A DNA stretch of 64,000 bases. It comes from Barnesiella sp. WM24. GTDB lineage: Bacteria > Bacteroidota > Bacteroidia > Bacteroidales > Muribaculaceae. How positions within the stretch are numbered: position 1 is the first letter of the stretch; every line of letters begins with the position of its first letter. The position numbers and the translations under genes were made by a program. Shown one piece after another: positions 47,384 through 63,371 of this stretch. The notes beneath the pieces are model-generated. The model searched no databases. It was not told the origin of the DNA and saw nothing but the letters and a program-made list of their open reading frames with translations. The DNA is taken from assembly GCF_004570975.1 (NCBI RefSeq), contig NZ_SPPC01000011.1, forward strand, positions 1-64,000, written 5' to 3'.

Positions 47384-47395
47384 TACGCTATCTTA

Positions 47396-48111: not shown

Positions 48112-48175
48112 AAGAATTGGATTTTAGTGTCGGACCGGCATCAATAGCCGATCCGACATGATGGTTGGTTTCTTA

Positions 48176-48754
48176 CTATGCTTTGTTCTTTTCGGGAATG
48201 AAGCAAAAATCTGCGTAAATCTCGATGAATTGTTTGGCTGCATACTCAGCCAGCTTTTCGCTTTTGAAGGCGAGCCGAGAGCCGTAGTTCGAGTACGAAG
48301 AAGCGAAATACGCGTCCGAGTAGACGAGACCGCCACTCGCGTACGCATAGTAGTTCGACCGACCGACGCACCGGCTCTTCTCTTCGTCAGATAGAGCTTC
48401 GTAGTCTTCCTTGCTGATAAGGTCGTACCACCCGTACCAACGGCGCTCGCCATCGACAAACTGAGGTTCCCAGCCCTCATTTAGGGCGGCGGTGATGATG
48501 CGAAGTTGGAAATATGCTTTGATGTCGGGCATTAGATCGCGGAGGCTCCATTCCACGGCACGATAGGCTTTTACTGCTTCGTGTTCTTCGCCAAGTTCTT
48601 CGATGGCATCTTTGATGGTTTTCACACGATCTGTTACGGGGAGTATCTCAGAGAGCTTTTCTCCTATCTGTTCTTTGATGGCCTTTCGACCGACGGCGTT
48701 ACAGTTGCCATATACAGCTACTAACGTCTCTTTGTTTAATTGGATTGCTTCCAT
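48176..48754 (-). CDS. Candidate DGR target protein with Tyr/Asn-rich variable-like segment
   Basis: 192 residues from ATG 48754. Residues 83-112 (QLRIITAALNEGWEPQFVDGERRWYGWYDL) and 159-182 (GSRLAFKSEKLAEYAAKQFIEIYADF) are conserved in a Bacteroidales phage/host family whose middle differs between members. Here residues 131-159 contain seven Tyr and two Asn, on TAC/TAT/AAC codons separated by GCG and TCG codons. All nine differ from AAY at the first base at most, as expected of adenine-directed mutagenesis. The surface-protein role is inference. It is driven by operator-promoter A. Confidence 0.7.
   Translation of the reverse strand: MEAIQLNKETLVAVYGNCNAVGRKAIKEQIGEKLSEILPVTDRVKTIKDAIEELGEEHEAVKAYRAVEWSLRDLMPDIKAYFQLRIITAALNEGWEPQFVDGERRWYGWYDLISKEDYEALSDEEKSRCVGRSNYYAYASGGLVYSDAYFASSYSNYGSRLAFKSEKLAEYAAKQFIEIYADFCFIPEKNKA
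48278..48364 (-). other. Putative variable-repeat (VR-like) segment
   Basis: This stretch codes GRSNYYAYASGGLVYSDAYF and then ASSYSNYGS. Tyr and Asn codons are interspersed with invariant Gly, Ser and Ala codons. It ends in GC-rich GGCTCTCGGCTCGCC, where a DGR would place its homing-initiation site. No template repeat matching it is present in the window. Confidence 0.5.
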
Positions 48755-48796
48755 TTGTTTGAGTTTTTTGATTAGAATGTATCTTATTTGCACTTG

Positions 48797-48860
48797 CAAA
48801 TTTAATCGAAAATAATCATTTACGCAAGTTTTGGGGCGATTATTTTAATCATATACGCAA
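48797..48860 (-). promoter_or_regulatory. Operator-promoter A (double operator)
   Basis: On the - strand: -7 TAAATTTG (48804-48797), 20-bp spacer, -33 CTTG (48828-48825). Operator 1, ATAATCATTTACGCAA (48812-48827), overlaps the -33 box. Operator 2, TTAATCATATACGCAA (48845-48860), is a direct copy 33 bp upstream. A weaker partial copy is near 48872. It drives 48754 to 47183. Confidence 0.82.
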
Positions 48861-48902
48861 TATTTATTAGTGTAATAATCATTGTTACTATGTTTTGCCT
48901 AA

Positions 48903-49115
48903 TTAGAGGGCACCGCATACTGCGATATAATATTCGGCATCTATGGCATCGCAATTTAGCAGTTGAACTCCGATGTGTTTGCAGAGTTTGCTAATAAGCT
49001 CTATTCGATTCTGTTTTCGATTCTCAGACGCAATGCAAGATGAGGTTCTGTAAATCTCGTCAGCTAAAGTGCTGAATACAATTTGAGCCTGGTCGGTTGA
49101 CATTTCTATTTTCAT
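48903..49115 (-). CDS. Small hypothetical phage protein
   Basis: 70 residues, helical (STDQAQIVFSTLADEIYRTSSCIASENRKQNRIELISKLCKHIG). No family recognised. Last gene of the unit from operator-promoter B, 8 nt after the DUF1848 gene. Confidence 0.55.
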   Translation of the reverse strand: MKIEMSTDQAQIVFSTLADEIYRTSSCIASENRKQNRIELISKLCKHIGVQLLNCDAIDAEYYIAVCGAL

Positions 49116-49123
49116 GTTTATTG

Positions 49124-50122
49124 CTAACTAATTAAGGATTCATACTCATTCTTCCTATTGGCTTGTTCGCACCCTTGTTTGCCATATGCAGGCGTAATAT
49201 TGGCGTAGCAATACACGCAGCTATGCCCGCAGGTATTATATGTTCCAATATCTTTGCTGAGGACGCAGCCACATGCAGCTCTTTGTCCGGGGTCTTTGGG
49301 AAAGGATTCTGGAGTACCGAACATATCCGAGTAGCCGAGCCATGACATTAGCCTTTCGTCGTCTTTGAATAGTCGCGTCATTAGTAAGGGGTCAACGCAA
49401 CGATTCTTTGCTACGCCAAACTTACTCAAGTCTATTTGTTCTCCGCAAGTTGCGAGTTCATATCCAAGCGATTCATTAATTTTGGATAATTCAGTTGCAA
49501 AATCACACATGCTTTTTTGTGTGAAATCTACATACTTTATTCCGCCTTGGTTGAGATTGTATTGCACTTTACGATAGCTTGTGATGTCCGCGAAGCTGAA
49601 TACTAGTTTCTCACAATAGTCTTTGAGTTCTCGACCGATCTTCTCTATTCTTTCAAGATGGTCTGTTATCTGAAGATTGTCTGTCAGAATAACTGGGTCA
49701 TATCTCCATATGACAGAACCAACGCCTAAAACATCAACGAGGCGTTTGAATGTATCGATGCGCTGGTTTAGCGGTGGAATGCTCGGTTCAAACCCTTCGG
49801 CTGCATAATCATTGAGAGTAAACTGGATATAGCAGTTTACATTGCGACTGGATAGCTCTAGCATTCGGTCTATGAGTGCTATGGGGTTTTTAGACCAGAA
49901 CACTACCACTCTAGTATTCTGAAACGAAACAAAAGATTGCTTTTGGTTAAATGGATTTACCCACGAGCAATATCCTTTCTTGAGTCGGTTGAAGAACCAA
50001 TCCAAATGAAATGCTGGAATGTCAGTGCTCCGACTTGCCGATATGACGATGGGCGCGATAGCATCCACACACTCTCCAGTTTCGCGAATAATGCTTACCT
50101 TTTCGTGCTTATACATTTTCAT
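49124..50122 (-). CDS. DUF1848 family protein (Cys-rich, radical-SAM-like)
   Basis: 332 residues. The DUF1848 opening is VISASRSTDIPAFHLDWFFNRLKKGYCSWVNPFNQ with VVFWSKNP. The C-terminal Cys-rich end is ACGCVLSKDIGTYNTCGHSCVYCYANITP, whose CxxxCxxC suits an Fe-S cluster. The barrel-like middle (IWRYDPVI, FSFADITSYRKV) fits a radical SAM fold. Function unknown. Unusual as phage cargo. The start overlaps the upstream gene by 4 nt (ATGA). Confidence 0.85.
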   Translation of the reverse strand: MKMYKHEKVSIIRETGECVDAIAPIVISASRSTDIPAFHLDWFFNRLKKGYCSWVNPFNQKQSFVSFQNTRVVVFWSKNPIALIDRMLELSSRNVNCYIQFTLNDYAAEGFEPSIPPLNQRIDTFKRLVDVLGVGSVIWRYDPVILTDNLQITDHLERIEKIGRELKDYCEKLVFSFADITSYRKVQYNLNQGGIKYVDFTQKSMCDFATELSKINESLGYELATCGEQIDLSKFGVAKNRCVDPLLMTRLFKDDERLMSWLGYSDMFGTPESFPKDPGQRAACGCVLSKDIGTYNTCGHSCVYCYANITPAYGKQGCEQANRKNEYESLIS

Positions 50123-50451
50123 TTCACTTCAACAATATATTCAATTCCGGAGCCCAGATATTCACGCAATGAAGTTTTGTCGACTGCATAATACTCTGCA
50201 CATTGTCCATACCGCTTTACTACAAATTTCTTTAAGATATCGTGGAATGTGAAAGCCCAACCCTGCAAAGGAATGGCGTTGTTAAAGTACGAATTGGAGT
50301 TTACTTTGTGAGTAATCCAATTCTTTTGTGCTCTATTGAGTTTGATGCCGGAATTGATAAGTTCCCTTATTTTATAGACAATGCTGTCCTTGAGGGCATC
50401 TATGGGTTTGGTATCCCATGGAACAAATTTAAATACAGTCGCTGTCATCAT
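50119..50451 (-). CDS. Hypothetical phage protein
   Basis: 110 residues (MMTATVFKFVPWDTKP). ATG 50451 overlaps the upstream stop as ATGA, deciding the start over a TTG 9 nt upstream. Helical with a basic middle. Family not recognised. Confidence 0.6.
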   Translation of the reverse strand: MMTATVFKFVPWDTKPIDALKDSIVYKIRELINSGIKLNRAQKNWITHKVNSNSYFNNAIPLQGWAFTFHDILKKFVVKRYGQCAEYYAVDKTSLREYLGSGIEYIVEVK

Positions 50452-50786
50452 TGGAACCAATATAATCTGACGAAGTCGTTATTGGGATCGCTGTTTTCAA
50501 ACCATGTTTCCAAGCTCGATATAAGTTCTTCTACCGAAAACTCTGCTTCGCCCTCTTCGAGGTATCTGGCGTATCTCTCTCGACATTTCTTGACCTTCTT
50601 AATCGCTTGCTCAAATTCGTCTTTAGGTATTTCGAGTGTGTCTGCGCTCTCGATATACTCGCTGTTGCACCACAATCCGGGGCATAGGTCGTTGAGTAAG
50701 CGGTTTATACAATCTTGTTGGTATGACATGAAGCCATGATCATATTTTACGTCGTACTTGGTAGCGACGTGGCATCTGTACCCCAT
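50448..50786 (-). CDS. Hypothetical phage protein
   Basis: 112 residues starting MGYRCHVATKYDVKYDHGFM. A charged coiled segment lies in the middle (KDEFEQAIKKVKKCRERYARYLEEGEAEF). No family recognised; coupled to its downstream neighbour by ATGA. Confidence 0.6.
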   Translation of the reverse strand: MGYRCHVATKYDVKYDHGFMSYQQDCINRLLNDLCPGLWCNSEYIESADTLEIPKDEFEQAIKKVKKCRERYARYLEEGEAEFSVEELISSLETWFENSDPNNDFVRLYWFQ

Positions 50787-50788
50787 AT

Positions 50789-51145
50789 TTATTCAGTTTT
50801 TGTTTCGTTGATTATCTCTTTTTCAATCTCGCAGAGGAATATCTTGAAGTCTTTCTTGTGATGGAGAAAGACCATTTCTATTTGAGCTTGCATTTTAGGA
50901 AGTCTCGCGAGCCCCATGCATTTTAGGAATTCGCTCACTAAAAACTGTTGGTCGTTACGGTTAGTAACTCCAATTCCGGAGCAAAGATCATTGATAGACT
51001 GTCTCGCCCGTCTTTTGAGCTTTTCTTGGTTCGGCCAATAGGTGCCGTCCGTTTGGCTCCTTGGATAACCGCATGCTTCGCCAAGATATTCACCGGTTAT
51101 GGCATCCAATGTACCGTCGAGCATCATTTCTGCTATTTCCCCCAT
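50789..51145 (-). CDS. Hypothetical phage protein
   Basis: 118 residues from ATG 51145 (MGEIAEMMLDGTLDAITGEYLGEACGYPRSQ), which lies 1 nt after the upstream TAA. A longer frame from ATG 51196 would overlap that gene by 50 nt and is less likely. Predicted helical. Function unknown. Confidence 0.6.
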   Translation of the reverse strand: MGEIAEMMLDGTLDAITGEYLGEACGYPRSQTDGTYWPNQEKLKRRARQSINDLCSGIGVTNRNDQQFLVSEFLKCMGLARLPKMQAQIEMVFLHHKKDFKIFLCEIEKEIINETKTE

Positions 51146-51146
51146 T

Positions 51147-51797
51147 TTATATTTGTCTTTTGAATTTGCGTTTGCAGGCAGAAGGGATGATGACATCTAT
51201 CGGCCCATGCACCATTTCTTTAATTGAATCTACGCTTTTTTCATCGCCACGTTCTGTGGCGATATTTATGGCATCCGCTATTGCTCGCTCTTTGTCAAGG
51301 GCACTGTAACCGAATACTTCCTTCCGTCTTTTGTCGGAGAATTCTGGGAAAATGGCGGTTCCACAGCCGTAATATCCAAAGGTGGAGATGCGATAAAATG
51401 GCTCATAACATCTGCGAAAGACTTTCCCATCAACTATCAAGTATTCGCGACTTGTGAGTTTTAGATATGCGACATATTCCGCCTTTGTTGTGTACTCTCC
51501 GTAATTGGGGTATTTTCTGAATACGCTTTCCCAAGGGATGGCATCGAATTCATATTCTTCGGAGCGTTTGCCGTTATAGAATGAGATTCTAGCTTCTTTG
51601 TATAACTGGTTCTTGAACAACCGGACCTCCATCATCCGCTCCCTGAGGCTATGGACAATAAACGCAACCGGGGCCTCGGTTGCAGATGCCTCTCTTATTC
51701 TAACCTTGACCTTTTCTTTATGTCCGATTGGTCGCGGTTTTCGGCATCTTGGAGGAACCTCATTCTCATGGAATTCAATCTCAATCTCAATTACCAT
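51147..51797 (-). CDS. Hypothetical phage protein
   Basis: 216 residues, mixed alpha/beta with basic ends (HENEVPPRCRKPRPIGHKEKVKVRI, IIPSACKRKFKRQI). Aromatic-rich middle (YEPFYRISTFGYYGCGTAIF). No family recognised. Confidence 0.6.
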   Translation of the reverse strand: MVIEIEIEFHENEVPPRCRKPRPIGHKEKVKVRIREASATEAPVAFIVHSLRERMMEVRLFKNQLYKEARISFYNGKRSEEYEFDAIPWESVFRKYPNYGEYTTKAEYVAYLKLTSREYLIVDGKVFRRCYEPFYRISTFGYYGCGTAIFPEFSDKRRKEVFGYSALDKERAIADAINIATERGDEKSVDSIKEMVHGPIDVIIPSACKRKFKRQI

Positions 51798-52230
51798 CGG
51801 TCTCTGATTTTATAAGATTGTCGAAGAAGTCTTTAATTTCAGTGTATAGAACTTCTTTCGGTGTGCTAATTGCCCTCCTACCCTCGAAGAATCTGCCGCC
51901 AATCTTGAAGCAGAATGGGTATAGGTCGTACTGGTAGCATTCTCCGACAAAGAAGGCGTTATGCAACATTCTTGCCGGCGGAAGACAATCCATAACATCG
52001 TAGTAGCGTTCTTCGTCTATTTCCTCGAATGGAGCTTTGTTGAGCATTGCTCGATGCTCGTTGACGAGTTCTGCGACTCTTTCAGGGGTTACGGCTATGA
52101 GATTAGGATTATCTTTGGCCTTTTTCAGAGCTTCGAGAGTTTCGCCTCCATAGTCGCTGTGGATGTCATCACTCATGCTTGTAACGACTGTTCCTTCAAA
52201 GGGGATAGTGGGGTCTATGATATATTTCAT
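51787..52230 (-). CDS. Hypothetical phage protein
   Basis: 147 residues. It contains LPPARMLHNAFFVGECYQYDLYPFCFKIGGRFFEGRRAIST, a compact aromatic segment shared by several phage hypotheticals. Overlaps both neighbours (11 nt and 4 nt). Confidence 0.6.
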   Translation of the reverse strand: MKYIIDPTIPFEGTVVTSMSDDIHSDYGGETLEALKKAKDNPNLIAVTPERVAELVNEHRAMLNKAPFEEIDEERYYDVMDCLPPARMLHNAFFVGECYQYDLYPFCFKIGGRFFEGRRAISTPKEVLYTEIKDFFDNLIKSETDGN

Positions 52231-52430
52231 ATTGCGTTTTCGTAAATTGTGGGTTCTGATGATACATTATATATAAAGGAGCCACAGCGCACGAGAAGAG
52301 CATTTTTACCATAGTAGAGTTTTCTCATACCAGTTACACTTCCGGACGCGCTGAAGTTGGGAAAGCGGTGTATATCCACGCGCTCTCCCTCTTCTATACA
52401 GATTCGTTTTACTCTTGGTGGCCGTGCCAT
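52227..52430 (-). CDS. Small hypothetical phage protein
   Basis: 67 residues, basic start (MARPPRVKRICIEEGERVDIHRF), then short beta strands. It overlaps the 394-residue upstream gene by 22 nt and ends with an ATGA overlap. No family recognised. Confidence 0.55.
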   Translation of the reverse strand: MARPPRVKRICIEEGERVDIHRFPNFSASGSVTGMRKLYYGKNALLVRCGSFIYNVSSEPTIYENAI

Positions 52431-53593
52431 AGCTTCTGTCCTAATTTTGACACTTCACTGACATCGTAAGTTCCGTTGGGACCACCGAGAATGACGCGGG
52501 CTGCACTATAGCATGCATTCTGCGTAAGCTGACGTTGCCAGCATGCATTGTTTCTAGACCATCGCCAGGCTTCTTTCTTGAGCAGGCTGATGACCTCTGG
52601 TGCCGGCTTTCCTTCGTGGAAGATTTGCAGGCGGTCTTCTTCGTAGTTCTTGACGATAGTGCAAGAATACATTTCGAACACTTCGTTTTCGCGGTTCGCG
52701 TTCTCGGTTTGCTTGGCAAGGGTTTCCTCTGCCTTCTCTACGAGTTTCCAGAACTTGTGGCGATCAGTGAATATCGGTTTGCCACCGGCGCTTTTGAACT
52801 TCGCATTGAGTTCTTTGATGAACTCGCCGGCTCTGCGGAGCATTTCGACTTTACCATTCTTCGCAAGGGTTTCCATTCGGTTGTAGAGGTTCGACACAAA
52901 AAGTGTTCGGTTATACGGCTCATTACGGGTGTCAATCCCGAAGATACTTCTCGCAGTATCCATTATTCGTGCCTTTACCGCTTGCCACTCTTCCTCTTCT
53001 CTTTGGTCTTGTGGCTTCGCGGCTTCCATGCGACGCTGGACTCCTTTGAAGAATCGGTCACGCCACTCTCGGAAGTTTCTGTAGGCTGTGTCGTAGGCGT
53101 CGCTGGCACTTTTGTTTCTTTTAGTCGGGAACTTCGCCGGCCCGACAATCATTGCGCTCATAACACGAGAGTGCTTGCTGAACAGCGTGGCAACCCATTC
53201 GCGGTATTTCTCGATGTAGGCTTCGTGTTCTGCCTCGGGGAGTTCCTTCAAGTCTTCCACAATTTCTTTCTCATAGTCACGAATGTACTGGACCGCCCTG
53301 TCTTCGGGAGTATGGCTTGTTCCGGAGAACGCTCTCACACCTGCATCGTAGAGATTTTCGAGGCTGACTTCGTAAAGCCAACTTGTGACTGCCCATTCTT
53401 TGAGATTGTAGTTGGAAATTTCGATTTCTTCGCCTGAAGGTGATGTAACTTTGTGGGCGTAGTTACAATACATGAATCCTTGGTGCTTGGCAATTGCCCG
53501 ATAGTCGAAAGTGTAGTCGGGAGAGTCTGGCTGATTGACCGGGCGAACTGTCTTTGCTCTATGGCAGTTCTTGATTGATAAAATTGTTTCCAT
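52409..53593 (-). CDS. Large hypothetical phage protein with nucleic-acid-protein-like C-terminus
   Basis: 394 residues. The body is helical and highly charged (EKEIVEDLKELPEAEHEAYIEKYREW). The C-terminal 70 residues (RLQIFHEGKPAPEVISLLKKEAWRWSRNNACWQRQLTQNACYSA) match a motif seen at the ends of many plasmid and phage proteins, often helicase- or DUF3560-associated. Two leader motifs (GCAAATAAGATA) precede its ATG. Confidence 0.68.
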   Translation of the reverse strand: METILSIKNCHRAKTVRPVNQPDSPDYTFDYRAIAKHQGFMYCNYAHKVTSPSGEEIEISNYNLKEWAVTSWLYEVSLENLYDAGVRAFSGTSHTPEDRAVQYIRDYEKEIVEDLKELPEAEHEAYIEKYREWVATLFSKHSRVMSAMIVGPAKFPTKRNKSASDAYDTAYRNFREWRDRFFKGVQRRMEAAKPQDQREEEEWQAVKARIMDTARSIFGIDTRNEPYNRTLFVSNLYNRMETLAKNGKVEMLRRAGEFIKELNAKFKSAGGKPIFTDRHKFWKLVEKAEETLAKQTENANRENEVFEMYSCTIVKNYEEDRLQIFHEGKPAPEVISLLKKEAWRWSRNNACWQRQLTQNACYSAARVILGGPNGTYDVSEVSKLGQKLWHGHQE

Positions 53594-53630
53594 TAGGTAT
53601 CTTATTTGCGTTTGTCTATCTTATTTGCAT

Positions 53631-54065
53631 TTAAGCGAGTTTGTAAGTATTGATTTGGCCTAACCAGCGGCCTAATTGTTGAGCAACGATTTTCTCGCTG
53701 ATTGCCACGCTGTACGTGAGCCATTTATCGTTGCCCCATTGCACATTTATATGGTAGTCGCAGTCGCCTCTTCCGAAGTGAGAGCCGTCAGTATTCAAGG
53801 CTTTTTCGTAGTGAATCTCAAATCTCCTTCCGGCAGAATCAATGATTACTACGCATGGTTCGGCACTGGGGAGTTTAGATTTATCTATTTTGAAAGAGCC
53901 TATTCCCAATAATTGGGATAACGTGTCTTTGAATGTTTCATAGGCGTGTTTCGCGTTTTCCTGACGCTTCGAGCGTTGTCTTTTTTGGGCTTCTTTTTCT
54001 CGGACGTCTTTGTCGATGACTTCCTTGCGAGAGGCATTAGCGATGCTTAGTAGGTCTTGGCTCAT
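53631..54065 (-). CDS. Hypothetical phage protein
   Basis: 144 residues. Basic coiled-coil N-terminus (REKEAQKRQRSKRQENAKHAYETFK), then a beta-rich domain (CVVIIDSAGRRFEIHYEKAL). No family recognised. Confidence 0.6.
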   Translation of the reverse strand: MSQDLLSIANASRKEVIDKDVREKEAQKRQRSKRQENAKHAYETFKDTLSQLLGIGSFKIDKSKLPSAEPCVVIIDSAGRRFEIHYEKALNTDGSHFGRGDCDYHINVQWGNDKWLTYSVAISEKIVAQQLGRWLGQINTYKLA

Positions 54066-54066
54066 A

Positions 54067-54342
54067 TCACGCGTTTTCTTTTACATCTTCAATATCGAAG
54101 AGTACGGGAACTTCCCCGAAAAATTCCTCAGTAATTTCTTTCATCGCTTTTTCGTTTGTCGATATTGCGATGAAGATGAGTGGGGCCCAACCGGGAACTA
54201 CTGTCTTGCTCTTGTCTCCTTCTCCGGCAAATATAACTCTCCGGTCTTTGGTGGTTTGGCCGAGATCATTCTGATGATCGGCTACATCGTTGGCTTCCTG
54301 TCGGCTTTCGAGTCCTACGATGATTTTCTTGATGTACTTCAT
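54067..54342 (-). CDS. Small hypothetical phage protein
   Basis: 91 residues, alpha/beta, ending in an acidic tail. Adjacent in the operon, with 1 nt to the next gene. No family recognised. Confidence 0.6.
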   Translation of the reverse strand: MKYIKKIIVGLESRQEANDVADHQNDLGQTTKDRRVIFAGEGDKSKTVVPGWAPLIFIAISTNEKAMKEITEEFFGEVPVLFDIEDVKENA

Positions 54343-54353
54343 ATTAATATTGT

Positions 54354-54890
54354 TTAAGCGTTATACTTTGCTACGAGTGCGGCGAGAGCCGAGCGATAAT
54401 CGTGGCTTCCGAGTTCAGCGAGATCGATGAGCTCTTTTTCGCAAGCATCGAAGTTCAGGCTCTGTTCTTTAGAGGGTTCCTCGTAGAGCTTTCGGAGGCC
54501 TTTGCTTCCGTCGAGATATGTGATGAGAACTTTTTGCCCTTTGTTCGTCTTTACCAATTCGTATTTGGCGACTCCGCGGGCCTTGTCTTCAGCCGTTATA
54601 GAACGTCTGATTCGCTGTGCTTCCGTGAGAGCTTTTTCTATTTCGCATTCTTCGGTTTTTGGCTCGGTGTAGTAGAATTCCAAGGTTGCGTTCCAGACGT
54701 CGCACATTGCTTGGTGAAGTTCCTGGTCTGCGAGAGGGCGGATTGTGGAGAAGTAACTTCTCATTTGATTGTCGAACTTTGCATCGTAGCCGTTGTTTTC
54801 GTACCAGACCTGCTCCATGTCGAAGTTGGATTTTTTCTTCACACTTTTCAGGATTTCTATCGCTTTCTTTATGGTTTCTCTTGTATTCAT
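54354..54890 (-). CDS. Hypothetical phage protein
   Basis: 178 residues, helical with a beta insert (YELVKTNKGQKVLITYLDGSKGLRKL). First gene of the unit driven by operator-promoter B. No family recognised. Confidence 0.62.
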   Translation of the reverse strand: MNTRETIKKAIEILKSVKKKSNFDMEQVWYENNGYDAKFDNQMRSYFSTIRPLADQELHQAMCDVWNATLEFYYTEPKTEECEIEKALTEAQRIRRSITAEDKARGVAKYELVKTNKGQKVLITYLDGSKGLRKLYEEPSKEQSLNFDACEKELIDLAELGSHDYRSALAALVAKYNA

Positions 54891-54932
54891 ATTGGTGGTC
54901 TTTTTTGATGTTTTTTATCTCATTTGCATATA

Positions 54933-54996
54933 CAAAGATAATCAAAAATAATCATATATGCAAGTTTTAGGGGTGTTATTTTAATCATATCTGCAA
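54933..54996 (-). promoter_or_regulatory. Operator-promoter B (double operator)
   Basis: On the - strand: -7 TATCTTTG (54940-54933), 20-bp spacer, -33 CTTG (54964-54961). Operator 1 ATAATCATATATGCAA (54948-54963) overlaps the -33 box. Operator 2 TTAATCATATCTGCAA (54981-54996) is a direct copy 33 bp upstream. It drives 54890 to 48903. Confidence 0.85.
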
Positions 54997-55031
54997 TTTA
55001 TTTTGTCAGATATAATCAATATGATAATATT

Positions 55032-55057
55032 AAAGGCAACCCAAGCGGATTGCCTTT
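55032..55057. terminator. Terminator after the lysis genes
   Basis: AAAGGCAA pairs with TTGCCTTT around a 10-nt loop. The T-run is better on the + strand, but position favours ending the leftward lysis transcript just before operator-promoter B. Confidence 0.6.
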
Positions 55058-55074
55058 TTACAATGAAAAAGAGT

Positions 55075-55590
55075 TTAGAAAGTGATTATGTTGTAGGAAA
55101 TTCCTATTCCAATATACGGCTGAACTCTATTCGGTATCATGCCGCAACCGAGTTGGATTCCGATTCCCCACTTTTTATCTTTGGTGGGCGACCTGATATA
55201 GACGGTCTCGGTGCGTTTGAAAATCTCAATGCTATCCAGAGCCGGACGATAACCGCTCACGTAGGCTCTGAAAGTGCTGTCTTCGTATATCTTTTGGGTA
55301 ATAGGAATTACGACTTCTACACTATCCTTCGGGGACTCGTAACTCATCGAATCCACGATCGTTTCAATCGTAGCTGTCGGCGGACTGGGTTGTCTTGCGG
55401 CTGGCAGTCTTTCGGTGACATACCGAAGTATCACGCTATCAACGGGGACTGGCTGGCGATACGGGATTGTGTCGTAGATTGTGATTACCTTTTCTTCTGT
55501 ATCTATGGGACCGGCTCTGGTCCAGAGCATCACATTAGCGAGAACGGATGCAAGCAGCAAGATTAAGAGAATTGTTATTGCCTTTTTCAT
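55075..55590 (-). CDS. DUF6808-like membrane-anchored protein, putative Rz/spanin
   Basis: 171 residues with one N-terminal TM (about 4-22), then DTIPYRQPVPVDSVILRYVTERLP, a pattern shared by DUF6808 proteins in Bacteroides phages. The C-terminus is beta-rich (GIGIQLGCGMIPNRVQPYIGIGISYNI). Its place right after the amidase suggests a part in the last step of lysis; this is inference. Confidence 0.65.
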   Translation of the reverse strand: MKKAITILLILLLASVLANVMLWTRAGPIDTEEKVITIYDTIPYRQPVPVDSVILRYVTERLPAARQPSPPTATIETIVDSMSYESPKDSVEVVIPITQKIYEDSTFRAYVSGYRPALDSIEIFKRTETVYIRSPTKDKKWGIGIQLGCGMIPNRVQPYIGIGISYNIITF

Positions 55591-55601
55591 ACTGTTGGAA
55601 T

Positions 55602-56210
55602 TTAGAGACTCTTGTATTCGGTGAGAGCATCAAATGACGGGCAAGCCTTGTTCGCAAACTCTCTATGACCGTGAATTGTTGACTTGGGATATTTCGCCTT
55701 TAACCCTTTGAGAAGTTTGACGAGAGCTGTTCTCTGCGCCGGCGTGCGTGTATCTTTGGGAACATGGCTACCATCGGCGACTTCACCACCAATATAGCAT
55801 ACCCCGATGGAGTTTGAATTGTGGCCCACGCAGTGTGCGCCAATTTTGGATTCTGCGCGGCCGGCATGAACGCTGCCGTCTCGATATATAACGTAGTGAT
55901 ACCCTATATCTGAGAATCCGCGAGCAAGATGCCACTCTCTGATTTGAGCCGTCGTGAAGTCCTTACCTTCAGGAGTCGCCGAGCAATGCACGATGAGTTC
56001 TGTGATATTCCGGGAATTTGTGGTAATAATGCCTAATTTTGCCCATGTGTTGGTGCCGACAACACCATCGACAGTAAGTTTGTTGGCTTTCTGAAATGCC
56101 CTGACAGCTTCGTCCGTAATCGGGCCGAAGATGCCATCTGCAATGAGATTGAGCCTTGTTTGCAGGGTCTTTACATCATCGCCCCTGCTTCCGAGTCTGA
56201 GTATAGTCAT
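55602..56210 (-). CDS. N-acetylmuramoyl-L-alanine amidase (endolysin)
   Basis: 202 residues. PG_binding_1 domain (about 5-60, LQTRLNLIADGIFGPITDEAVRAFQ), then an Amidase_2 domain (about 68-195) with zinc-ligand and catalytic positions in LIVHCSATPEGKDF, GYHYVIYRDG, GAHCVGHN and HREFANKACPSFD. It cleaves the MurNAc-L-Ala bond. No signal peptide, so it depends on the holin. Confidence 0.93.
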   Translation of the reverse strand: MTILRLGSRGDDVKTLQTRLNLIADGIFGPITDEAVRAFQKANKLTVDGVVGTNTWAKLGIITTNSRNITELIVHCSATPEGKDFTTAQIREWHLARGFSDIGYHYVIYRDGSVHAGRAESKIGAHCVGHNSNSIGVCYIGGEVADGSHVPKDTRTPAQRTALVKLLKGLKAKYPKSTIHGHREFANKACPSFDALTEYKSL

Positions 56211-56221
56211 TTTATCGTTAT

Positions 56222-56767
56222 TTATTCCGTGGTGTCACAGCTTTCTGATCCAAGTATCTGTTCAATTGATTCATAGCAATCCGCTCCAAGTTTCCTGTTA
56301 AGTGCGTCGAGAACACGTTTCTTAGCTAATTCATGGATTGAATCTTTTAAAGCATCATCGCCAATCCATTCGGCTATATCTCGGATTGTCTCAGGAATTT
56401 TTGCTGTACGGCATTTACGGCGTCTAGAGTGTTCAAAAACACTCTTGCCTTCAATCACTATGATGGCGACAGCAATAACCATTGACACATACGGCCATTC
56501 GTACCAAGTAAAGATGGTACCCATCAGTCCTAAGATGAATCCCAAAAGCTGGATTAACCAATACCATGAAATCTTCTCTACGGTCATTCTGAGCTTGCGA
56601 GAACGAAGAGGTTCTCCGAGTTTCTTGGCGGTATATATGCCACTAATAAAATCTATAATACATACAGCTACAGTCGAGAGAAACAGAATGAAGCAGACTA
56701 TTAGGTGGCGGTATAAATGGCCCAAATCGTAGTTGCTGAATGCCATGGAGATTATTTCGTTCATCAC
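56222..56767 (-). CDS. Phage holin-like membrane protein
   Basis: 181 residues with about three TM segments (about 20-48, 68-90 and 92-108) and a charged cytoplasmic tail. ISGIYTAKKLGEPLRSRKLRMTVEKISWYW matches the phage_holin_4 pattern. It sits directly upstream of the amidase in the lysis cassette. Confidence 0.8.
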   Translation of the reverse strand: MMNEIISMAFSNYDLGHLYRHLIVCFILFLSTVAVCIIDFISGIYTAKKLGEPLRSRKLRMTVEKISWYWLIQLLGFILGLMGTIFTWYEWPYVSMVIAVAIIVIEGKSVFEHSRRRKCRTAKIPETIRDIAEWIGDDALKDSIHELAKKRVLDALNRKLGADCYESIEQILGSESCDTTE

Positions 56768-56776
56768 TCTGTTTGT

Positions 56777-58039
56777 TTATTCGAGGTTGAAGACTTTCTT
56801 GAGTTCGTCCACGAGGTCAAGTTTCTCCCATGTGAACAGTTCGACTTGCTTATCTCCTACATTTTCGATTGAAGGGATGCGGCCGAAGTGTCCGTAGGAA
56901 GCTGTTGCTTCGTAAATGGGGTTGCGGAGTTTGAGTCTCTTGTTGATGCCAGCGGGAGTAAGGTCGACAAGCTGGGAAACGATGTTGGCGATTTCCGAGT
57001 CGGCATAAGGAACATGACGGCGGACTGTGCTCACACAAAGACTCACAGGCTGGGCCACGCCTATGGCGTATGCAACCTGCACAAGAACTTGATCCGCCAC
57101 TCCTGCGGCTACAAGATTCTTGGCGATGTGGCGGGCGGCGTAGGCTGCTGAGCGGTCGACCTTGCTGGGATCTTTACCAGAGAACGCGCCACCACCATGT
57201 GCACCATGACCGCCGTAGGTGTCGACAATGATTTTGCGCCCTGTAAGGCCGGTATCTCCGTGGGGGCCGCCGATGACGAACTTGCCGGTGGGATTGACAT
57301 GAAGAACGAGATTGCTGTCAAACAGAGCTGCGACTTCGGGCTGAAGCTGAGAGATAACTCGCGGGAGCAGAATGTTCTTCACGTCTTCACTGATTCTGTT
57401 AAGCATGAGGGTATCGGCTGCAGATTGGGGGAGCCCATGCTCGGCCTTGATGAAGTCGTCGTGCTGTGTTGAGATTACGATGGTGTGGATTCTGTTCGGG
57501 CGGTTGCTCTCGTCATCATATTCCACAGTTACCTGGCTCTTGGAGTCTGGGCGCAGATAGGTCATAACCTTGCCTTCGCGACGGATGCAAGAAAGTTCCT
57601 GGAGAAGCCTGTGGCTGATATAGAGCGACAGCGGCATATAGGTTTCGGTTTCATTGCAGGCGAAGCCAAACATCATACCCTGGTCGCCGGCACCCTGTGC
57701 CTCTTCTGATTCACGCACAACGCCACGGTTAATATCCGGACTCTGACCGTGCATGGCGTTTAGGATGCCGCATGATTCGGCGTCGAACTTGTAGTCGCTC
57801 TTGTTATAACCGATTCGGTTGATGACGCGGCGGGCGATGTCTTGAACATCCACTTTTGCGGTTGAACGATATTCGCCGGCGATGATAACCTGGCCGGTAG
57901 TAACGAGGGTTTCGCATGCAACTTTTGCGTCGCCGTCCTGTGAAAGATGGGCGTCCACGATGGCGTCTGAAATCTGGTCGGCCACCTTGTCGGGATGTCC
58001 CTCTGACACGGACTCCGAAGTAAAAAGGTATTTTCCCAT
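56777..58039 (-). CDS. metK: S-adenosylmethionine synthetase
   Basis: 420 residues, full length. All signatures are present: [19 protein letters not shown], the methionine loop [31 protein letters not shown] and the P-loop-like [19 protein letters not shown]. It makes SAM from ATP and methionine. It stands within the prophage, 9 nt before the holin gene and after a terminator that isolates it from the nucleosidase/dUTPase unit. No inactivating change is seen. Confidence 0.97.
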
Positions 58040-58076
58040 TATTGTGATATTTTTGATTGATTTTCGTTTACTTGCT

Positions 58077-58157
58077 CAAAGTTAGATATATTACGTGCAT
58101 CTACTTAATAAAATGCGCCCGACAAACTGCAAGTGGCTATGCAGTCGTGCCGGGCGC
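58077..58157 (-). promoter_or_regulatory. Hairpin terminator followed by a metK promoter
   Basis: A strong nested hairpin (GCGCCCG 58115-58121 with CGGGCGC 58151-58157; ACTGCA 58126-58131 with TGCAGT 58140-58145), followed by ATTTTATT on the - strand, ends the upstream unit. Then comes a -7 box TAACTTTG (58084-58077), 38 nt before the metK ATG. No SAM riboswitch fits in the short leader. Confidence 0.6.
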
Positions 58158-58193
58158 GGCGAACCTATTGGGAAAACGGTTGTGGTAGGCTTG

Positions 58194-58724
58194 TTATCGT
58201 TGTGAACGTATGCGGGCAATCTCTTCAATGTTTTTTCTTACCTCAGCCCACAGTTCTGCAGATGTTGTATCGATTGTAGTTTCGTATTCGGTTACATCGA
58301 GATTGTCGCTGACTATTTTGACAGAACCGATCAGGTCTATGGGGAACGCGACCATATAATTGAGTTCCATGTCGTATATTACCGGGGAATCGCTGGTGCT
58401 TTCCGTAACGAAGCTATTGCTTGTGTAGCATGGGTACCCGTCCAGGCCAAATTCGTATCCGTTGCGGTAGTCGTCGAATTCAACAGTATTATCTACGAGG
58501 CGGTATGATTTGGATACTTTGGTTACTGTTCCAATTGGTAATCTATTGCTACCGCAGAAACCGACATTGATAAAGCTGTGTTCCTTTGAATACAGCTGCG
58601 TCATCGCGCTCAGCGTCTTTATAACATTTGACGCGCCCACGCCGGTCTTGAATACGGAGTAATTGGTCAAATGCTTCTTTGCCAATTCGTACTCCTCTTT
58701 CGTTGCTGTGAGAATATGTATCAT
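58194..58724 (-). CDS. Compact MTA/SAH-nucleosidase-like (PNP/UDP phosphorylase fold) protein
   Basis: 176 residues against about 230 for cellular MTAN. Family landmarks in order: ATKEE (residues 7-11, catalytic Glu position), KTGVGASNV (26-34), NVGFCGS (53-59), TSNSFVTES (101-109), YDMEL (117-121, ribose-binding Glu120) and IVSDNLD (137-143, catalytic Asp140). MTAN cleaves methylthioadenosine and S-adenosylhomocysteine. It is one operon step from dUTPase and just upstream of metK, which supports a link to SAM. The true substrate is unproven. Confidence 0.75.
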   Translation of the reverse strand: MIHILTATKEEYELAKKHLTNYSVFKTGVGASNVIKTLSAMTQLYSKEHSFINVGFCGSNRLPIGTVTKVSKSYRLVDNTVEFDDYRNGYEFGLDGYPCYTSNSFVTESTSDSPVIYDMELNYMVAFPIDLIGSVKIVSDNLDVTEYETTIDTTSAELWAEVRKNIEEIARIRSQR

Positions 58725-58733
58725 ACTATTGTG

Positions 58734-59375
58734 TTAACTATTGAATATTTTACCCATAAGGGTTGCATCTACTTCCTTCCTTTTTTCGGGAGGAAGGCTC
58801 GCGTAGTATTCGTGGAACGGAATATCCTTTTTTTCGGTTGGAAGTCCAGAGCCGCTACTGCCGAGTCCACCCCCTCGGCTCTCGCAGGAGAGTTTGTCTA
58901 CAATTTCAAACTCTGGTGAAAGAACTTTATAGAATGTCATTTGGGCGATGCGAGTACCACGTTTTATGGTGAACTCTTCGTCGTTATTTTTTACAATGAC
59001 ATTGATATTATCAGTGTATCCGGGGTCAATTTTACCGACAAGTACATCACAATCCCAACGATATATACCGGTTGTGTGCTTCCATGGGAAAAAGATATTT
59101 GGGATAATACCGAACAGCAAATTTGGCTCCTTACGTGTTCCGTGCCCTTCCATACCATACAGCTCAAAGCCGCTCCTTGGCTCAATCTTTCCCTCGATAT
59201 TTTTGGGTAAGTTTATAGCAATGTTAAGAGGTATCTTACATCTTGATCGAGCCGGCACAACGGTATCTTCTGGCACGGTTAGATCAAAGCCGATGCTCCC
59301 AGGCTTGGCTTTTTGCGGAAGTATATAGTGTGCGCCGAAGTGGGCGACTTCTAACACAATTGAATCTCTTTTCAT
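58734..59375 (-). CDS. dUTP diphosphatase-like protein with insert and tail
   Basis: 213 residues. The five trimeric dUTPase motifs are GSIGFDL, EPRSGFEL, GKIDPGYTDNINVIVKN, GTRIAQMTF and RGGGLGSSGSG. An insertion of about 40 residues lies between motifs 2 and 3, and about 35 residues (FHEYYASLPPEKRKEVDATLM) follow motif 5. It keeps uracil out of phage DNA. It is 9 nt from the nucleosidase-like gene. Confidence 0.9.
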   Translation of the reverse strand: MKRDSIVLEVAHFGAHYILPQKAKPGSIGFDLTVPEDTVVPARSRCKIPLNIAINLPKNIEGKIEPRSGFELYGMEGHGTRKEPNLLFGIIPNIFFPWKHTTGIYRWDCDVLVGKIDPGYTDNINVIVKNNDEEFTIKRGTRIAQMTFYKVLSPEFEIVDKLSCESRGGGLGSSGSGLPTEKKDIPFHEYYASLPPEKRKEVDATLMGKIFNS

Positions 59376-59388
59376 TTGTCAGTACGGT

Positions 59389-59421
59389 GGCTGCGCCAAC
59401 ACTTTGCATGCCGACGCAGCC
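59389..59421. other. Intercistronic stem-loop
   Basis: GGCTGCG (59389-59395) pairs perfectly with CGCAGCC (59415-59421). No T-run follows on the - strand, so it may be an mRNA-processing or stability element ahead of dUTPase. Confidence 0.45.
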
Positions 59422-59427
59422 TTTGTT

Positions 59428-59916
59428 TTATTTTGCGAATGTTACTTTTACGGTTGTGGTCGATGTTTTGGCCGGTGCATAAATGGTCGAAACTTCTCCG
59501 GTATCTTCGTCTACGATAGTTTGCTTACCGGGGATTCCTCGGAGGAATGTTTCGCGGGCTTTGAGTTTGGCATCCAGTTCGGCCTTTCGCTTTGCAAGGT
59601 CGTTCCACTCCGGGTCGTTGCAGGTGCTGAAGTCGTACTTAACGCCCGCCTCCGCTATGCAAAGATTAGCCCCGTTGTAGTTGGCTCCGTTTTTGCCATA
59701 CTTTTCGCATGCGCTGATGGTTGCATCGACAACCTCTTTGCTTTTGAGGAAGATAGATAGGCACTCTACCATTGCTTTTATGGTTGAGAATACTGTAATG
59801 GGGTCGGCATCGCCACCGACGACTTTCGCGACGAGGTTCTGAGCCGTCGTCTTTTGATTTTCTTTCGTAAAGGGTATCGCCTTTCCGAAGATTTGGACTA
59901 AAGCATTTTCGCTCAT
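59428..59916 (-). CDS. Hypothetical phage protein
   Basis: 162 residues. Helical N-terminal part; a charged helix (WNDLAKRKAELDAKLKARETFL) leads to a Thr/Ser-rich beta tail (TIYAPAKTSTTTVKVTFAK). Family not recognised, though the layout recurs in Bacteroidales phages. Confidence 0.62.
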   Translation of the reverse strand: MSENALVQIFGKAIPFTKENQKTTAQNLVAKVVGGDADPITVFSTIKAMVECLSIFLKSKEVVDATISACEKYGKNGANYNGANLCIAEAGVKYDFSTCNDPEWNDLAKRKAELDAKLKARETFLRGIPGKQTIVDEDTGEVSTIYAPAKTSTTTVKVTFAK

Positions 59917-59923
59917 ATTGATA

Positions 59924-60157
59924 TTATTTTGAGTTTGGGGTTTGAACTTTCTTGAAGTCGTTGCGTAAATCTATCCATGCGAGCCGCCACAGGTATATTG
60001 ATACGGCAAGCATTGCGATTGAAAAGATGGCACCGTATGTATTCATTGTTCCTTTAATGATGTGCGCTACGGGCCACATGATGGCTATGATGAGCATGAT
60101 TGCTCCATAGACTGCTTGCTGAACCGAGAAGAATCTCGAAATTGAATTTGCTGTCAT
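59924..60157 (-). CDS. Small two-TM membrane protein
   Basis: 77 residues with TM segments at about 13-33 and 41-60 and a basic tail. Function unknown. A GCAAATAAGATA leader motif lies 12 nt before its ATG. Confidence 0.6.
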   Translation of the reverse strand: MTANSISRFFSVQQAVYGAIMLIIAIMWPVAHIIKGTMNTYGAIFSIAMLAVSIYLWRLAWIDLRNDFKKVQTPNSK

Positions 60158-60204
60158 TTTTTATTTGATATCTTATTTGCATTCAGGTGGGTTAAACCTG
60201 GTTC

Positions 60205-60567
60205 TTAATAGTATATTTCAGGGAATCCTTGGTTTGGGTCGGATTTGGGCGGTTGCCCTCCGCAGTACCATCCCTTTTGCCTTGTCAGCGACGGATGTAA
60301 TATATTTGGATTGTCGCCTTCGGGATATTTGCTATGTCCATCTGACTCCAAACCAAAGGCAAGATTTATTCCGGCATCGCGATTACTACCCATACCATTC
60401 ATTTCGGCAAGGAGTTCGTAATAGTCCTTCCCTCCGAATTTCCCATATCCTTCGTAGCAATTCTCTTCGTATGAAGAGCCATGGTTATCGGTCATATAGA
60501 CTGTTTTATATTCTCCAGCCACAATTCTCTCGCCGGTATCCTGGCAGCACCATGAAAATTGTCCCAT
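60205..60567 (-). CDS. Hypothetical phage protein
   Basis: 120 residues starting MGQFSWCCQDTGERIVAGEYKTVYMTD, an opening seen in many phage hypotheticals. Rich in Gly, Tyr and Cys (GKFGGKDYYELLAEMNG, GWYCGGQPP). Soluble; function unknown. Confidence 0.65.
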   Translation of the reverse strand: MGQFSWCCQDTGERIVAGEYKTVYMTDNHGSSYEENCYEGYGKFGGKDYYELLAEMNGMGSNRDAGINLAFGLESDGHSKYPEGDNPNILHPSLTRQKGWYCGGQPPKSDPNQGFPEIYY

Positions 60568-60585
60568 ACTTTTTATTTATTTGAT

Positions 60586-60924
60586 TTAGTATCCGAGAAC
60601 TTTCTTTGCGTTGGCCTCGATTTCTGCGAGAGACTGCTCAGGAAATTGCTGGTCGAGGATTTCGCCGGCTCTCTTGATAAAGTATTTGAACCTTAACTCA
60701 ACTTCAGCTTTCTGTTCCTCATCGTTCATGTTCGCATACTCTTGAGTATTCTCGTTGTCAGGGCAGAATCCACCAAGTTCAAGCGCGCCGGTCATTTCGG
60801 GGCCAGTCGCAAACTCGCAATAACAGTGTTCGGCGAATGATAGTCCAGCTTCTTTCGTTTCTTCGTTGTAGAAGTCCCAGAGTTCCTTGACGTATGGTTC
60901 GTAGATGTCGAGTTCTTTTTTCAT
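60586..60924 (-). CDS. Hypothetical phage protein
   Basis: 112 residues from ATG 60924 (MKKELDIYEPYVKELWDFYNEE). The frame continues upstream through the promoter but the -7 box at 60976-60969 excludes that start. Acidic, helical. First gene of the unit driven by operator-promoter C. Confidence 0.65.
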   Translation of the reverse strand: MKKELDIYEPYVKELWDFYNEETKEAGLSFAEHCYCEFATGPEMTGALELGGFCPDNENTQEYANMNDEEQKAEVELRFKYFIKRAGEILDQQFPEQSLAEIEANAKKVLGY

Positions 60925-60968
60925 TTCTTTGTGGTAGTTTTGGATTATTTTTATCTTATTTGCATACG

Positions 60969-61032
60969 CAAAGATAATCAAAAATAATCATTTATGCAAG
61001 TTTTAGAGTGATTATTTTAATCATATCTGCAA
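60969..61032 (-). promoter_or_regulatory. Operator-promoter C (double operator)
   Basis: On the - strand: -7 TATCTTTG (60976-60969), 20-bp spacer, -33 CTTG (61000-60997). Operator 1 ATAATCATTTATGCAA (60984-60999) overlaps the -33 box. Operator 2 TTAATCATATCTGCAA (61017-61032) is 33 bp upstream. It drives the unit from 60924 through dUTPase and the nucleosidase. Confidence 0.85.
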
Positions 61033-61121
61033 ATTATCGTCATTATGATTAGAAATGACTGTGCGCTGAAATGTATTCTGCACCTCTTTTTGCATATTTG
61101 ATTAAATGGACTGGCAAAAAA

Positions 61122-61149
61122 TAGACCCCACCATTATATTGGCAGGGTC
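61122..61149 (-). terminator. Terminator of higBA
   Basis: GACCCTGCC pairs with GGTGGGGTC (one wobble, one mismatch), followed by TATTTTTTG on the - strand. Confidence 0.7.
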
Positions 61150-61178
61150 AGAATTAGTTATATGAAATTACCGGAGTT

Positions 61179-61544
61179 TTATACTCCAAGTACGATAGAC
61201 GGAGATATATTCAGTTTCTGGCTGATTGCGCGCGCTTGCCGGAGGGTAGGCTCTTTTTCTCCTGAAAGATATGCACATATTTTCGTTGGAGCTATACCGA
61301 GAAGTTTGGATAGGGACGCTTGTGTAAGCCCCATTTCCTGCATTCTTATTTTGATGACATCGACTAACGATGGCTCTCCAATTGAAAAATGTGAATCAGA
61401 ATAATCCGCCACCAATCCAGACAGCAACTCCAACTCCATGCTGTGCGGGTCTGTCAGAGGCGTGTCGTCTTTTACATACGGCAAGAGTTCCTCTACTCTT
61501 TGGAGGGCCCAGCGATATTGAGCTTCATTCTCTATCTTTGTCAT
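61179..61544 (-). CDS. higA: HigA-type antitoxin, XRE HTH
   Basis: 121 residues. The N-terminal half is the HigA helical region (MTKIENEAQYRWALQRVEELL, PLTDPHSMELELLSGLVADY). The C-terminal HTH is LTQASLSKLLGIAPTKICAYLSGEKEPTLRQARAISQKL. It neutralises HigB and represses its own promoter. As a DNA-binding protein with operator D in front, it is a candidate for binding the four repeated operators. Confidence 0.88.
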   Translation of the reverse strand: MTKIENEAQYRWALQRVEELLPYVKDDTPLTDPHSMELELLSGLVADYSDSHFSIGEPSLVDVIKIRMQEMGLTQASLSKLLGIAPTKICAYLSGEKEPTLRQARAISQKLNISPSIVLGV

Positions 61545-61554
61545 ATATAAAATA

Positions 61555-61848
61555 TTAGATGGTTGAACAATCTATTTTATCATATTCTGCATGAGTACCG
61601 ATAAATCGGATGTAAACCCACTTTATTGTAAATTTGATAACAACGACAAGTCGGTGGTGGTTGCCTTTGATGTTGAATACATAGTGCTGGTTTCCCACGT
61701 TATCAACGCTATTGAAGTCTCTTTTGACATCGGCGAAATTTTCCCAACGGGCAGCCTTGACAATTTTCAGCCACTCTTGTAATGGTGTCTTGGTGTCAGG
61801 GTGCCTGGAGATATATTCTTTCAGAGGCTCTTCCGTGATAACTCTCAT
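61555..61848 (-). CDS. higB: HigB-type mRNA interferase toxin
   Basis: 97 residues from ATG 61848 (MRVITEEPLKEYISRHPDTKTPLQEWLKIV). HigB signatures are VGNQHYVFNIKGNHHRLVVVIKF and VYIRFIGTHAEYDKID. It cleaves mRNA on ribosomes. The frame extends upstream to a TTG that lies inside the -7 box, so that start is rejected. Toxin precedes antitoxin, as usual for higBA. Confidence 0.9.
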   Translation of the reverse strand: MRVITEEPLKEYISRHPDTKTPLQEWLKIVKAARWENFADVKRDFNSVDNVGNQHYVFNIKGNHHRLVVVIKFTIKWVYIRFIGTHAEYDKIDCSTI

Positions 61849-61872
61849 ATCATTGTAATCATTTGTGTTATG

Positions 61873-61935
61873 CAAAGTTACAAATAAATAATCATATACG
61901 CAAATTAAGGGAGGATTATTTAATCATAACTGCAA
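61873..61935 (-). promoter_or_regulatory. Operator-promoter D (double operator) of higBA
   Basis: On the - strand: -7 TAACTTTG (61880-61873), 20-bp spacer, -33 TTTG (61904-61901). Operator 1 ATAATCATATACGCAA (61888-61903) overlaps the -33 box. Operator 2 TTAATCATAACTGCAA (61920-61935) is 32 bp upstream. Confidence 0.85.
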
Positions 61936-61998
61936 GATTTACAAATTAAAAGGAGCGCCATTACTGACGCTCCCGAACATTGAACGCTCTTTCGACGC

Positions 61999-62490
61999 TC
62001 ACGCGCCTGAGGAACTGCAAATATGAAGTAGTACAAATAAATTCACATAGATGTCGACGAGAATACCGGCTTCGAGCCAGAAGACAAATTTGCGCCTGAG
62101 CACAACCCCGATGATAACACCCAAAATAGTTGCATAGGGTATTCCTGATGCAATTATAATCCAAGTCAGTGCAGACAAACCGAGAATTACGACCGCTCCG
62201 GTATGGACTTTTCCTACGAGTTCATCTTTGAACGCTGGGGAGGCGGCTACGAAAACAATGGAGCCACAAATCAGGAAAGCGAGATACTGGATGTTTTCCG
62301 GAGTAACTCGTAAGAGTGGCACCCATGCCAATGCCGCGCAGAGTGCAATCACGGCGGGGAAAAGGAATTTCGATTCTGTGTGGTAGTATGTCACGCTGAT
62401 AGAGGTTGGTAGTCCTCTTGAGATAACATATGCAATCAGGTATATGACGATGATTGCGAAAGAAATAATTGCGAGTATTGTTTCAGTCAT
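61999..62490 (-). CDS. Multi-TM phage membrane protein
   Basis: 163 residues from ATG 62490 (MTETILAIISFAIIVIYLIAYVIS). About five TM helices. Family not recognised. The longer frame upstream is out of place, overlapping the preceding gene. Confidence 0.62.
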   Translation of the reverse strand: MTETILAIISFAIIVIYLIAYVISRGLPTSISVTYYHTESKFLFPAVIALCAALAWVPLLRVTPENIQYLAFLICGSIVFVAASPAFKDELVGKVHTGAVVILGLSALTWIIIASGIPYATILGVIIGVVLRRKFVFWLEAGILVDIYVNLFVLLHICSSSGA

Positions 62491-62528
62491 AACGATTGGT
62501 GTTAAGGCAGCCTGCGGCCGCTGTGATT

Positions 62529-62846: not shown

Positions 62847-62863
62847 ATAGGCGTATTTAGTAT

Positions 62864-63361: not shown

Positions 63362-63371
63362 ATTAGAAGTA

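Follow-up and report, generated by a model that had tools for sequence, protein, structure and literature searches.

Tandem operators recurring at the promoters of a Bacteroidales prophage: a probable lysogeny regulon under a CI-like repressor

Why should four leftward promoters in one 64,000-nucleotide stretch of Barnesiella sp. WM24 DNA (the window; bases 1-64000 of contig NZ_SPPC01000011.1, 126,189 bp, here called C2) carry the same 16-bp site twice, and which protein would read it? An earlier sequence-only reading had proposed that one protein, with HigA and any CI-like protein as candidates, binds cooperatively on one face of the DNA and silences or switches four leftward transcripts together. 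We find that the sites recur across a prophage that runs beyond the window, and that they are probably the operators of a prophage-wide lysogeny regulon silenced by a phage-encoded CI-like repressor.

The four window promoters all have the form TTG-N20-TAnnTTTG on the minus strand and are of the Bacteroidetes type (PMC7366714 quotes the B. fragilis consensus, in which a -33 TTG is combined with a -7 TAnnTTTG). The 16-mer TTGCRDWWATGATTAW is the reverse complement of the consensus given by the sequence-only reading and begins with the TTG of the -33 box; we call the copy that contains this box O2 and the copy upstream of it O1. The double operator claimed for these promoters is borne out in full: all eight copies match the consensus without mismatch, O1 and O2 are 33, 33, 33 and 32 bp apart at promoters 1 to 4, and the promoter spacer is 20 bp (Table 1, in which the first base of a minus-strand site is the higher number). 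With up to two mismatches per site and spacings of 30-36 allowed, the window held six same-strand pairs, against two in total across 40 dinucleotide shuffles.

Scanning the full element with the consensus, as had been suggested, returned nine double-operator promoters on C2 and more sites on a second contig, C39. The set is element-wide, as proposed, but the figure of four transcripts was too low: there are at least nine, and the element extends past the window. A DNA search with one promoter as query found seven places including itself, all on C2 and on a single strand. A position matrix found nine promoter-linked O1-O2 pairs on C2, again on one strand (first bases of O2 at 48827, 54963, 60999, 61903, 86627, 90769, 99073, 113953 and 124933), with a spacing of 33 in seven and 32 in two and a 20-bp promoter spacer in all nine; this matrix was derived from the C2 sites themselves, so that independent evidence comes only from relatives. 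A double-site scan of the whole genome (3,494,878 bases on 40 contigs; spacing fixed at 33, up to three mismatches) gave eight matches, every one of them within the prophage and on the same strand, which correspond to seven O1-O2 pairs and one O2 with a chance match downstream. The reversed pattern, run as a control over the same genome, gave none.

Orientation and position within the prophage are equally biased. On its C2 part, sites scoring at least 13 number 20 on the leftward strand vs 4 on the other, and 18 of the 22 leftward sites scoring at least 9 belong to promoter pairs. Promoter-like matches to the strict pattern carry the operator in 8 of 10 leftward cases and in none of three on the other strand. 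None of eight promoter-like matches in the host flanks has an operator (58.8 kb, comprising C2 1-45480 and 13,280 bases of C39), and the matrix scan found no promoter-linked site in the host part of C2 or on the forward strand of C39.

The prophage comprises about 87 kb on two contigs, of which about 80.6 kb lie on C2 and about 6 kb on C39, where it starts inside a tRNA-Ser gene. We infer that the two parts are one Bacteroidales prophage because they share a 19-bp attachment core, because each carries one half of the tRNA gene, and because gene order is alike in two related phages, G015 and G028. An IMG/VR contig, L025, has the same sites and is 100% identical to the C39 end over the 1,400 bases compared. 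A near-identity search of window positions 46000-64000 against the phage collection gave no match, and a search of the genus matched one of 14 genomes, namely its own.

The C39 part supplies a candidate for the binding protein. Its order is an outward operator-promoter, a gene for a 96-residue protein, the CI-like gene (165 residues; L119 13845-14342, minus strand), a weak reverse site, three operators and the early operon. The three operators, with spacings of 39 and 32, thus stand between the early operon and a divergent CI-like gene, and the third overlaps the -7 box. The gene is likewise divergent from three operators in G015, G028, L052, L013 and L016, so that with C39 six of the nine CI-bearing stretches inspected share the arrangement (L013 and L016 are identical in the immunity region). 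An immunity region of the lambda type has a divergent repressor gene and an operator cluster adjoining the early promoter, and the C39 region resembles it in both respects. It differs in that its operators are asymmetric direct repeats that recur at nine further promoters, and in that the 165-residue protein, as modelled, lacks a peptidase-type C-terminal domain. The model (AlphaFold2, six sequences, mean pLDDT 75) predicts a five-helix helix-turn-helix (HTH) fold in residues 7-76 and a coiled coil at 106-156, with no second DNA-binding domain evident; the predicted HTH resembles 434 Cro, P22 C2 and SinR, with a target-normalised template modelling score of up to about 0.8 in Foldseek. The gene was found in 10 of 13 stretches (12 related records and the C39 stretch). 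G017 and G019, which have neither it nor its early neighbour early67, probably miss the CI end, and the G020 contig begins at early67. Across the order, 132 of 393 genomes gave a match to CI; beyond the prophage copy these were only weak and XRE-like, the next best having 36% identity over 72 residues.

We therefore propose the following scheme. In the lysogen, the CI-like repressor, with its HTH of the XRE/434-Cro type and its coiled-coil tail, would bind an asymmetric operator of about 15 bp lying over the -33 box and spacer, and once bound would block the host sigma factor at the main leftward promoters. The transcripts of the nine units, among them replication, packaging and HigBA cargo, would then be shut off together; the upstream O1 would strengthen occupancy. 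The immunity region would consist of the three operators that separate the repressor gene from the early operon, and these would probably serve autoregulation of the repressor as well. We favour repression in the lysogen because the -33 box would lie under any protein bound at O2, which would thus keep sigma from binding. CI binding, repression by that binding, cooperativity and autoregulation are each what we infer from this layout. The idea of a single silencing protein gains from three observations, namely that the sites overlap the -33 box and spacer, that the spacing-33 pairs are confined to the prophage and that sites adjoin the CI-like gene, but HigA, one of the two candidates offered for that role, does not survive (see below).

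Related phages keep the operator-promoters. The scan covered 15 stretches, each on its array strand and C39 on both strands; 13 of them held 84 promoter-linked sites, with a spacer of 20 bp in 83 and 19 bp in one. These counts take G020 minus its last 1,963 bases and leave aside G014 (the prophage itself), G016, G027, G029, G030, G422 and G423; they are not independent, G022-G025 being fragments of which G023 and G024 share array sequences. In one group of seven records (the present prophage, G015, G028 and G022-G025), every one of the 42 promoter-linked cases has its O1 32-33 bp upstream. Operators are kept in G018, G020, G019 and G017 despite a large terminase (TerL) only 65-68% identical. 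CI falls to 34-36% identity in G422 and G423, and there five promoters have the variant TTGYNNNWATGATAA (GATAA for GATTA). In G423 all four promoter-like matches of one strand carry it and none of the three on the opposite strand does, and in G422 the figures are 1 of 3 and 0 of 1, counts that come without a shuffle control; G422 and G424 have two copies of CATAAATGATWA 32 bp apart beside CI. Site and CI thus appear to persist together, with the site drifting as CI diverges, which is a correlation and not proof. The fixed-spacing pattern matched 12 of 17 records (none in G016, G017, G019, G021 and G026), the matches in G018 and G020 joining O2 to the leader element described below and not to O1. 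G016 (94 kb) has one promoter array, with a spacing of 35, and its homologues lie mostly in the last ~14 kb.

This constancy of the site also bears on the possibility that the repeats are merely copied promoter cassettes, or an extended -33 element without operator function. Over 110 nt, three copies share 72-86% identity with the reference, and the 20-bp spacer is almost invariant, as copying would leave them. However, the upstream copies have no -7 box after them, the spacing varies (32/33, 47, 56-58) around a constant 16-mer, the immunity-region copies take other positions relative to the promoter, host promoter-like matches lack the site, and a variant form of it persists in diverged phages. 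We regard such an origin as highly improbable.

Several findings weigh against a CI-regulated operator set, or at least against its simplest form. In a second group of phages (G018, G020 and G019, with TerL 65% identical) O1 is 47 or 56-58 bp upstream at 21 of 24 promoters (the remaining three comprise one without O1, one with a spacing of 35 and one with 33), and O1 is missing at 12 of 13 promoters in G017 and at all four in G021. Same-face cooperativity, as first proposed, consequently fits the group with 32-33 bp but not as a general rule, because 47 and 57 bp are about half a helical turn off, vs about three turns for 33 bp; in G017 and G021 taken together, 16 of 17 promoters have no upstream copy at all. 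The immunity region has two weak sites in G018 and weak sites in G021, and that of L126 has no site above the scan threshold despite a nearly identical CI recognition region, which tells against a tight link between site and CI. Of 18 stretches matched by the double-site pattern, three were contigs from bacteria that are not related (Staphylococcus equorum and two Pseudomonadota/Zetaproteobacteria bins), probably by chance. The CI-like protein hit no Pfam family at E 0.01, and no Foldseek match of its model reached E 0.001, the best being 0.023. Repressors of the XRE family usually bind palindromes, and TTGCRDWWATGATTAW is asymmetric. The region thus has the divergent HTH gene and operator cluster of a CI/Cro-type immunity region, with neither membership of a curated profile nor palindromic operators.

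Other conserved DNA-binding proteins of the phage also count on this side, and they give rise to the best of the alternatives: that another phage protein (the early 67-residue product, an HTH_3 protein near the terminase, or something Cro-like) activates or times lytic promoters instead of silencing them in the lysogen. The early67 gene and CI share their distribution (10 of 13 stretches), matches to the HTH_3 protein near TerL turned up in 8 of 13 (29-83% identity), and a site adjoining -33 could suit an activator. Yet a repressor would suit the position of O2, over the -33 box of promoters that are complete in all else and of the host type, and the three-site array, with its last site reaching the -7 box, is found in the region from which CI diverges. 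An activator or timing protein is therefore unlikely in our view, and the CI-like repressor remains the preferred binder.

Control by the HigA antitoxin or a host regulator is the least credible proposal and can be virtually dismissed: HigBA stands under one of the four window promoters and HigA has an HTH_3 domain, but neither HigA nor HigB has a tblastn match at E 1e-3 in the 12 related records or the C39 stretch, G015 and G028 keep the sites all the same, and spacing-33 double sites occur nowhere else in the host genome. HigA was rejected as the binder on the first two counts and a host regulator on the last. Bacteroidetes LexA was likewise rejected, the motifs reported in PMC8565304 being palindromes of a different sequence.

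The closest known systems are MrpR/SPBRE of SPbeta and the operators of mycobacteriophage L5. In SPbeta of Bacillus subtilis, the 15-bp motif SPBRE is described in ten promoter regions of a large prophage, where it is bound by the master repressor MrpR and serves lysogeny (PMC10516654). The likeness is one motif at many promoters across a prophage, here nine with double operators on C2; the differences are that MrpR has a tyrosine-recombinase fold, whereas the present candidate is predicted to combine an HTH with a coiled coil, and that the sites here come in pairs in tandem, one of each pair always providing the -33 box. The repressor sites of L5 and TipsytheTRex (cluster A mycobacteriophages) are reported as asymmetric, numerous and oriented, with a motif that drifts with the repressor, and most L5-type sites as not promoter-associated (PMC9283540, PMC6550527). 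Asymmetry and a single orientation relative to transcription are shared with the present sites. The preponderance of sites outside promoters is not, since most leftward sites on C2 form promoter pairs, and stoperators as their main role were rejected on that count; nor does the CI model appear to have a second DNA-binding domain. In Bacteroides, the hankyphage has a CI-like master repressor, RepC_HP, whose silencing raises most phage genes (PMC12135933), and in this the two systems are alike. The hankyphage differs in being Mu-like and transposable, and the main text of that paper uses the word 'operator' once, for lac. Literature searches on prophage operators of Bacteroidales and prophage repressors of Muribaculaceae, limited to open PMC papers, brought up no operator set for lysogeny control in Bacteroidales phages. 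The present work offers a concrete set that can be put to the test, names a candidate for the repressor gene, and supplies a signature by which the switch can be recognised in phages that have diverged. Immunity groups could be predicted from it, and silencing a single gene could be enough to induce silent gut prophages.

Table 1. Features of the window, in window coordinates
Feature	Position	Strand	Remark
5' part of split host tRNA-Ser	45511-45555	+	Attachment core (attR side) formed by the final 18-19 bases; 19 bp identical to the C39 side
Complete tRNA-Ser (GGA), just within the prophage	45579-45667	+	ARAGORN
Tyrosine-recombinase integrase	45891-47096	+	Pfam Phage_int_SAM_5, Arm-DNA-bind_5; start taken at the first in-frame ATG, common to the L052 integrase
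Leader element TGCAAATAAGATA, promoter 1	48780-48792	-	Exact match
-7 box TAnnTTTG, promoter 1	48797-48804	-	20-bp spacer
O2 of promoter 1, with -33 TTG	48812-48827	-	Exact consensus match
O1 of promoter 1	48845-48860	-	Exact consensus match
Two tandem promoterless leader elements, before gene 52409-53593	53598-53629	-	Extended form CTCGCTTAAATGCAAATAAG at 53620-53639
Leader element, promoter 2	54916-54928	-	1 mismatch
-7 box, promoter 2	54933-54940	-	20-bp spacer
O2 of promoter 2, with -33 TTG	54948-54963	-	Exact consensus match
O1 of promoter 2	54981-54996	-	Exact consensus match
Promoterless leader element, before gene 59924-60157	60169-60181	-	Exact match
Leader element, promoter 3	60952-60964	-	Exact match
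-7 box, promoter 3	60969-60976	-	20-bp spacer
O2 of promoter 3, with -33 TTG	60984-60999	-	Exact consensus match
O1 of promoter 3	61017-61032	-	Exact consensus match
Extra operator-like site, reverse orientation	61090-61105	+	1 mismatch; 58 bp from O1 of promoter 3
HigA-type antitoxin gene	61179-61544	-	Pfam HTH_3, 4.3e-9
HigB-type toxin gene, under promoter 4	61555-61875	-	First ATG at 61848; Pfam HigB_toxin, 7.3e-33
-7 box, promoter 4	61873-61880	-	20-bp spacer
O2 of promoter 4, with -33 TTG	61888-61903	-	Exact consensus match
O1 of promoter 4 (HigBA)	61920-61935	-	Exact consensus match

What the operators would govern can be read in part from the genes below them. The nine units include an SNF2-type helicase and ParB-like proteins, the large terminase (named through annotated relatives), an amidase and HigBA; from gene sequence and position, a structural block and an S-adenosylmethionine synthetase appear to be among them too. 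HigA and HigB are unmatched in the relatives, and in G015, which lacks HigBA, homologues of the neighbouring genes flank a double operator all the same; HigBA is therefore accessory cargo under the regulon, not its controller. Two genes of the prophage drew our attention. A gene recognised by its sequence as S-adenosylmethionine synthetase-like (56777-58039) is kept in six related records at 56-90% identity, and a DUF1848 protein (E 1.3e-90; 49124-50122) lies in a prophage operon and has relatives in four. The reverse-oriented site near promoter 3 occurs at an equal 58-bp distance in G015 and G028, and in G028 a terminator-like hairpin follows it.

A second short element accompanies the promoters. 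Directly after the -7 box, TGCAAATAAGATA (0-1 mismatch) is present in eight of the nine C2 arrays and is absent, by inspection, at the HigBA promoter; it also stands alone before other genes, without a promoter. With up to two mismatches, the C2 prophage part has 18 copies on the leftward strand and one on the other, and the 45.6-kb host part has one. Of the long form CTCGCTYAAATGCAAATAAG, the prophage contains all three copies that this genome has at 0-1 mismatch; contig C36 adds a fourth match, with three mismatches. Nine aligned early leaders of CI-bearing phages share an invariant core, GCAAATA, around which the remainder varies, most in G018. As CTCGCTYAAATGCAAATAAG, or as GCAAATAAGATA where operator-promoter transcripts start, this phage-specific leader precedes genes with or without an operator-promoter (also at L119 14540-14559), and phages with changed operators still have the core. 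Its distance of 33-34 bp from O2 and its partial resemblance to the operator led us to consider it as a third operator. We treat it as separate, because copies without promoters exist and because L126, with no scored operator in its immunity region, retains the core. An RNA-level role, such as nut-like antitermination or an effect on translation or processing, is our guess.

The outward operator-promoter beside the attachment site on C39 (first base L119 13521, minus strand) has no O1 partner and is also found in G027, G028 and L016. In L052 the order is operator-promoter, then the attachment sequence with the 3' half of tRNA-Ser, then the integrase. It is plausible from this order that the outward promoter faces the integrase only after excision, so that the integrase would be driven only in the circular phage, and circularisation would act as its switch. 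A fuller picture, in which tandem operators bound by CI form one layer of control and the CTCGCTYAAATGCAAATAAG / GCAAATAAGATA leader an RNA-level second, with the integrase promoter joined to its gene only in the circle, is possible, though as a whole we hold it only tentatively. The prophage interrupts the host tRNA-Ser(GGA) at its anticodon stem-loop (45511-45667; L119 13286-13370), and in G028, too, a tRNA-Ser adjoins the integrase.

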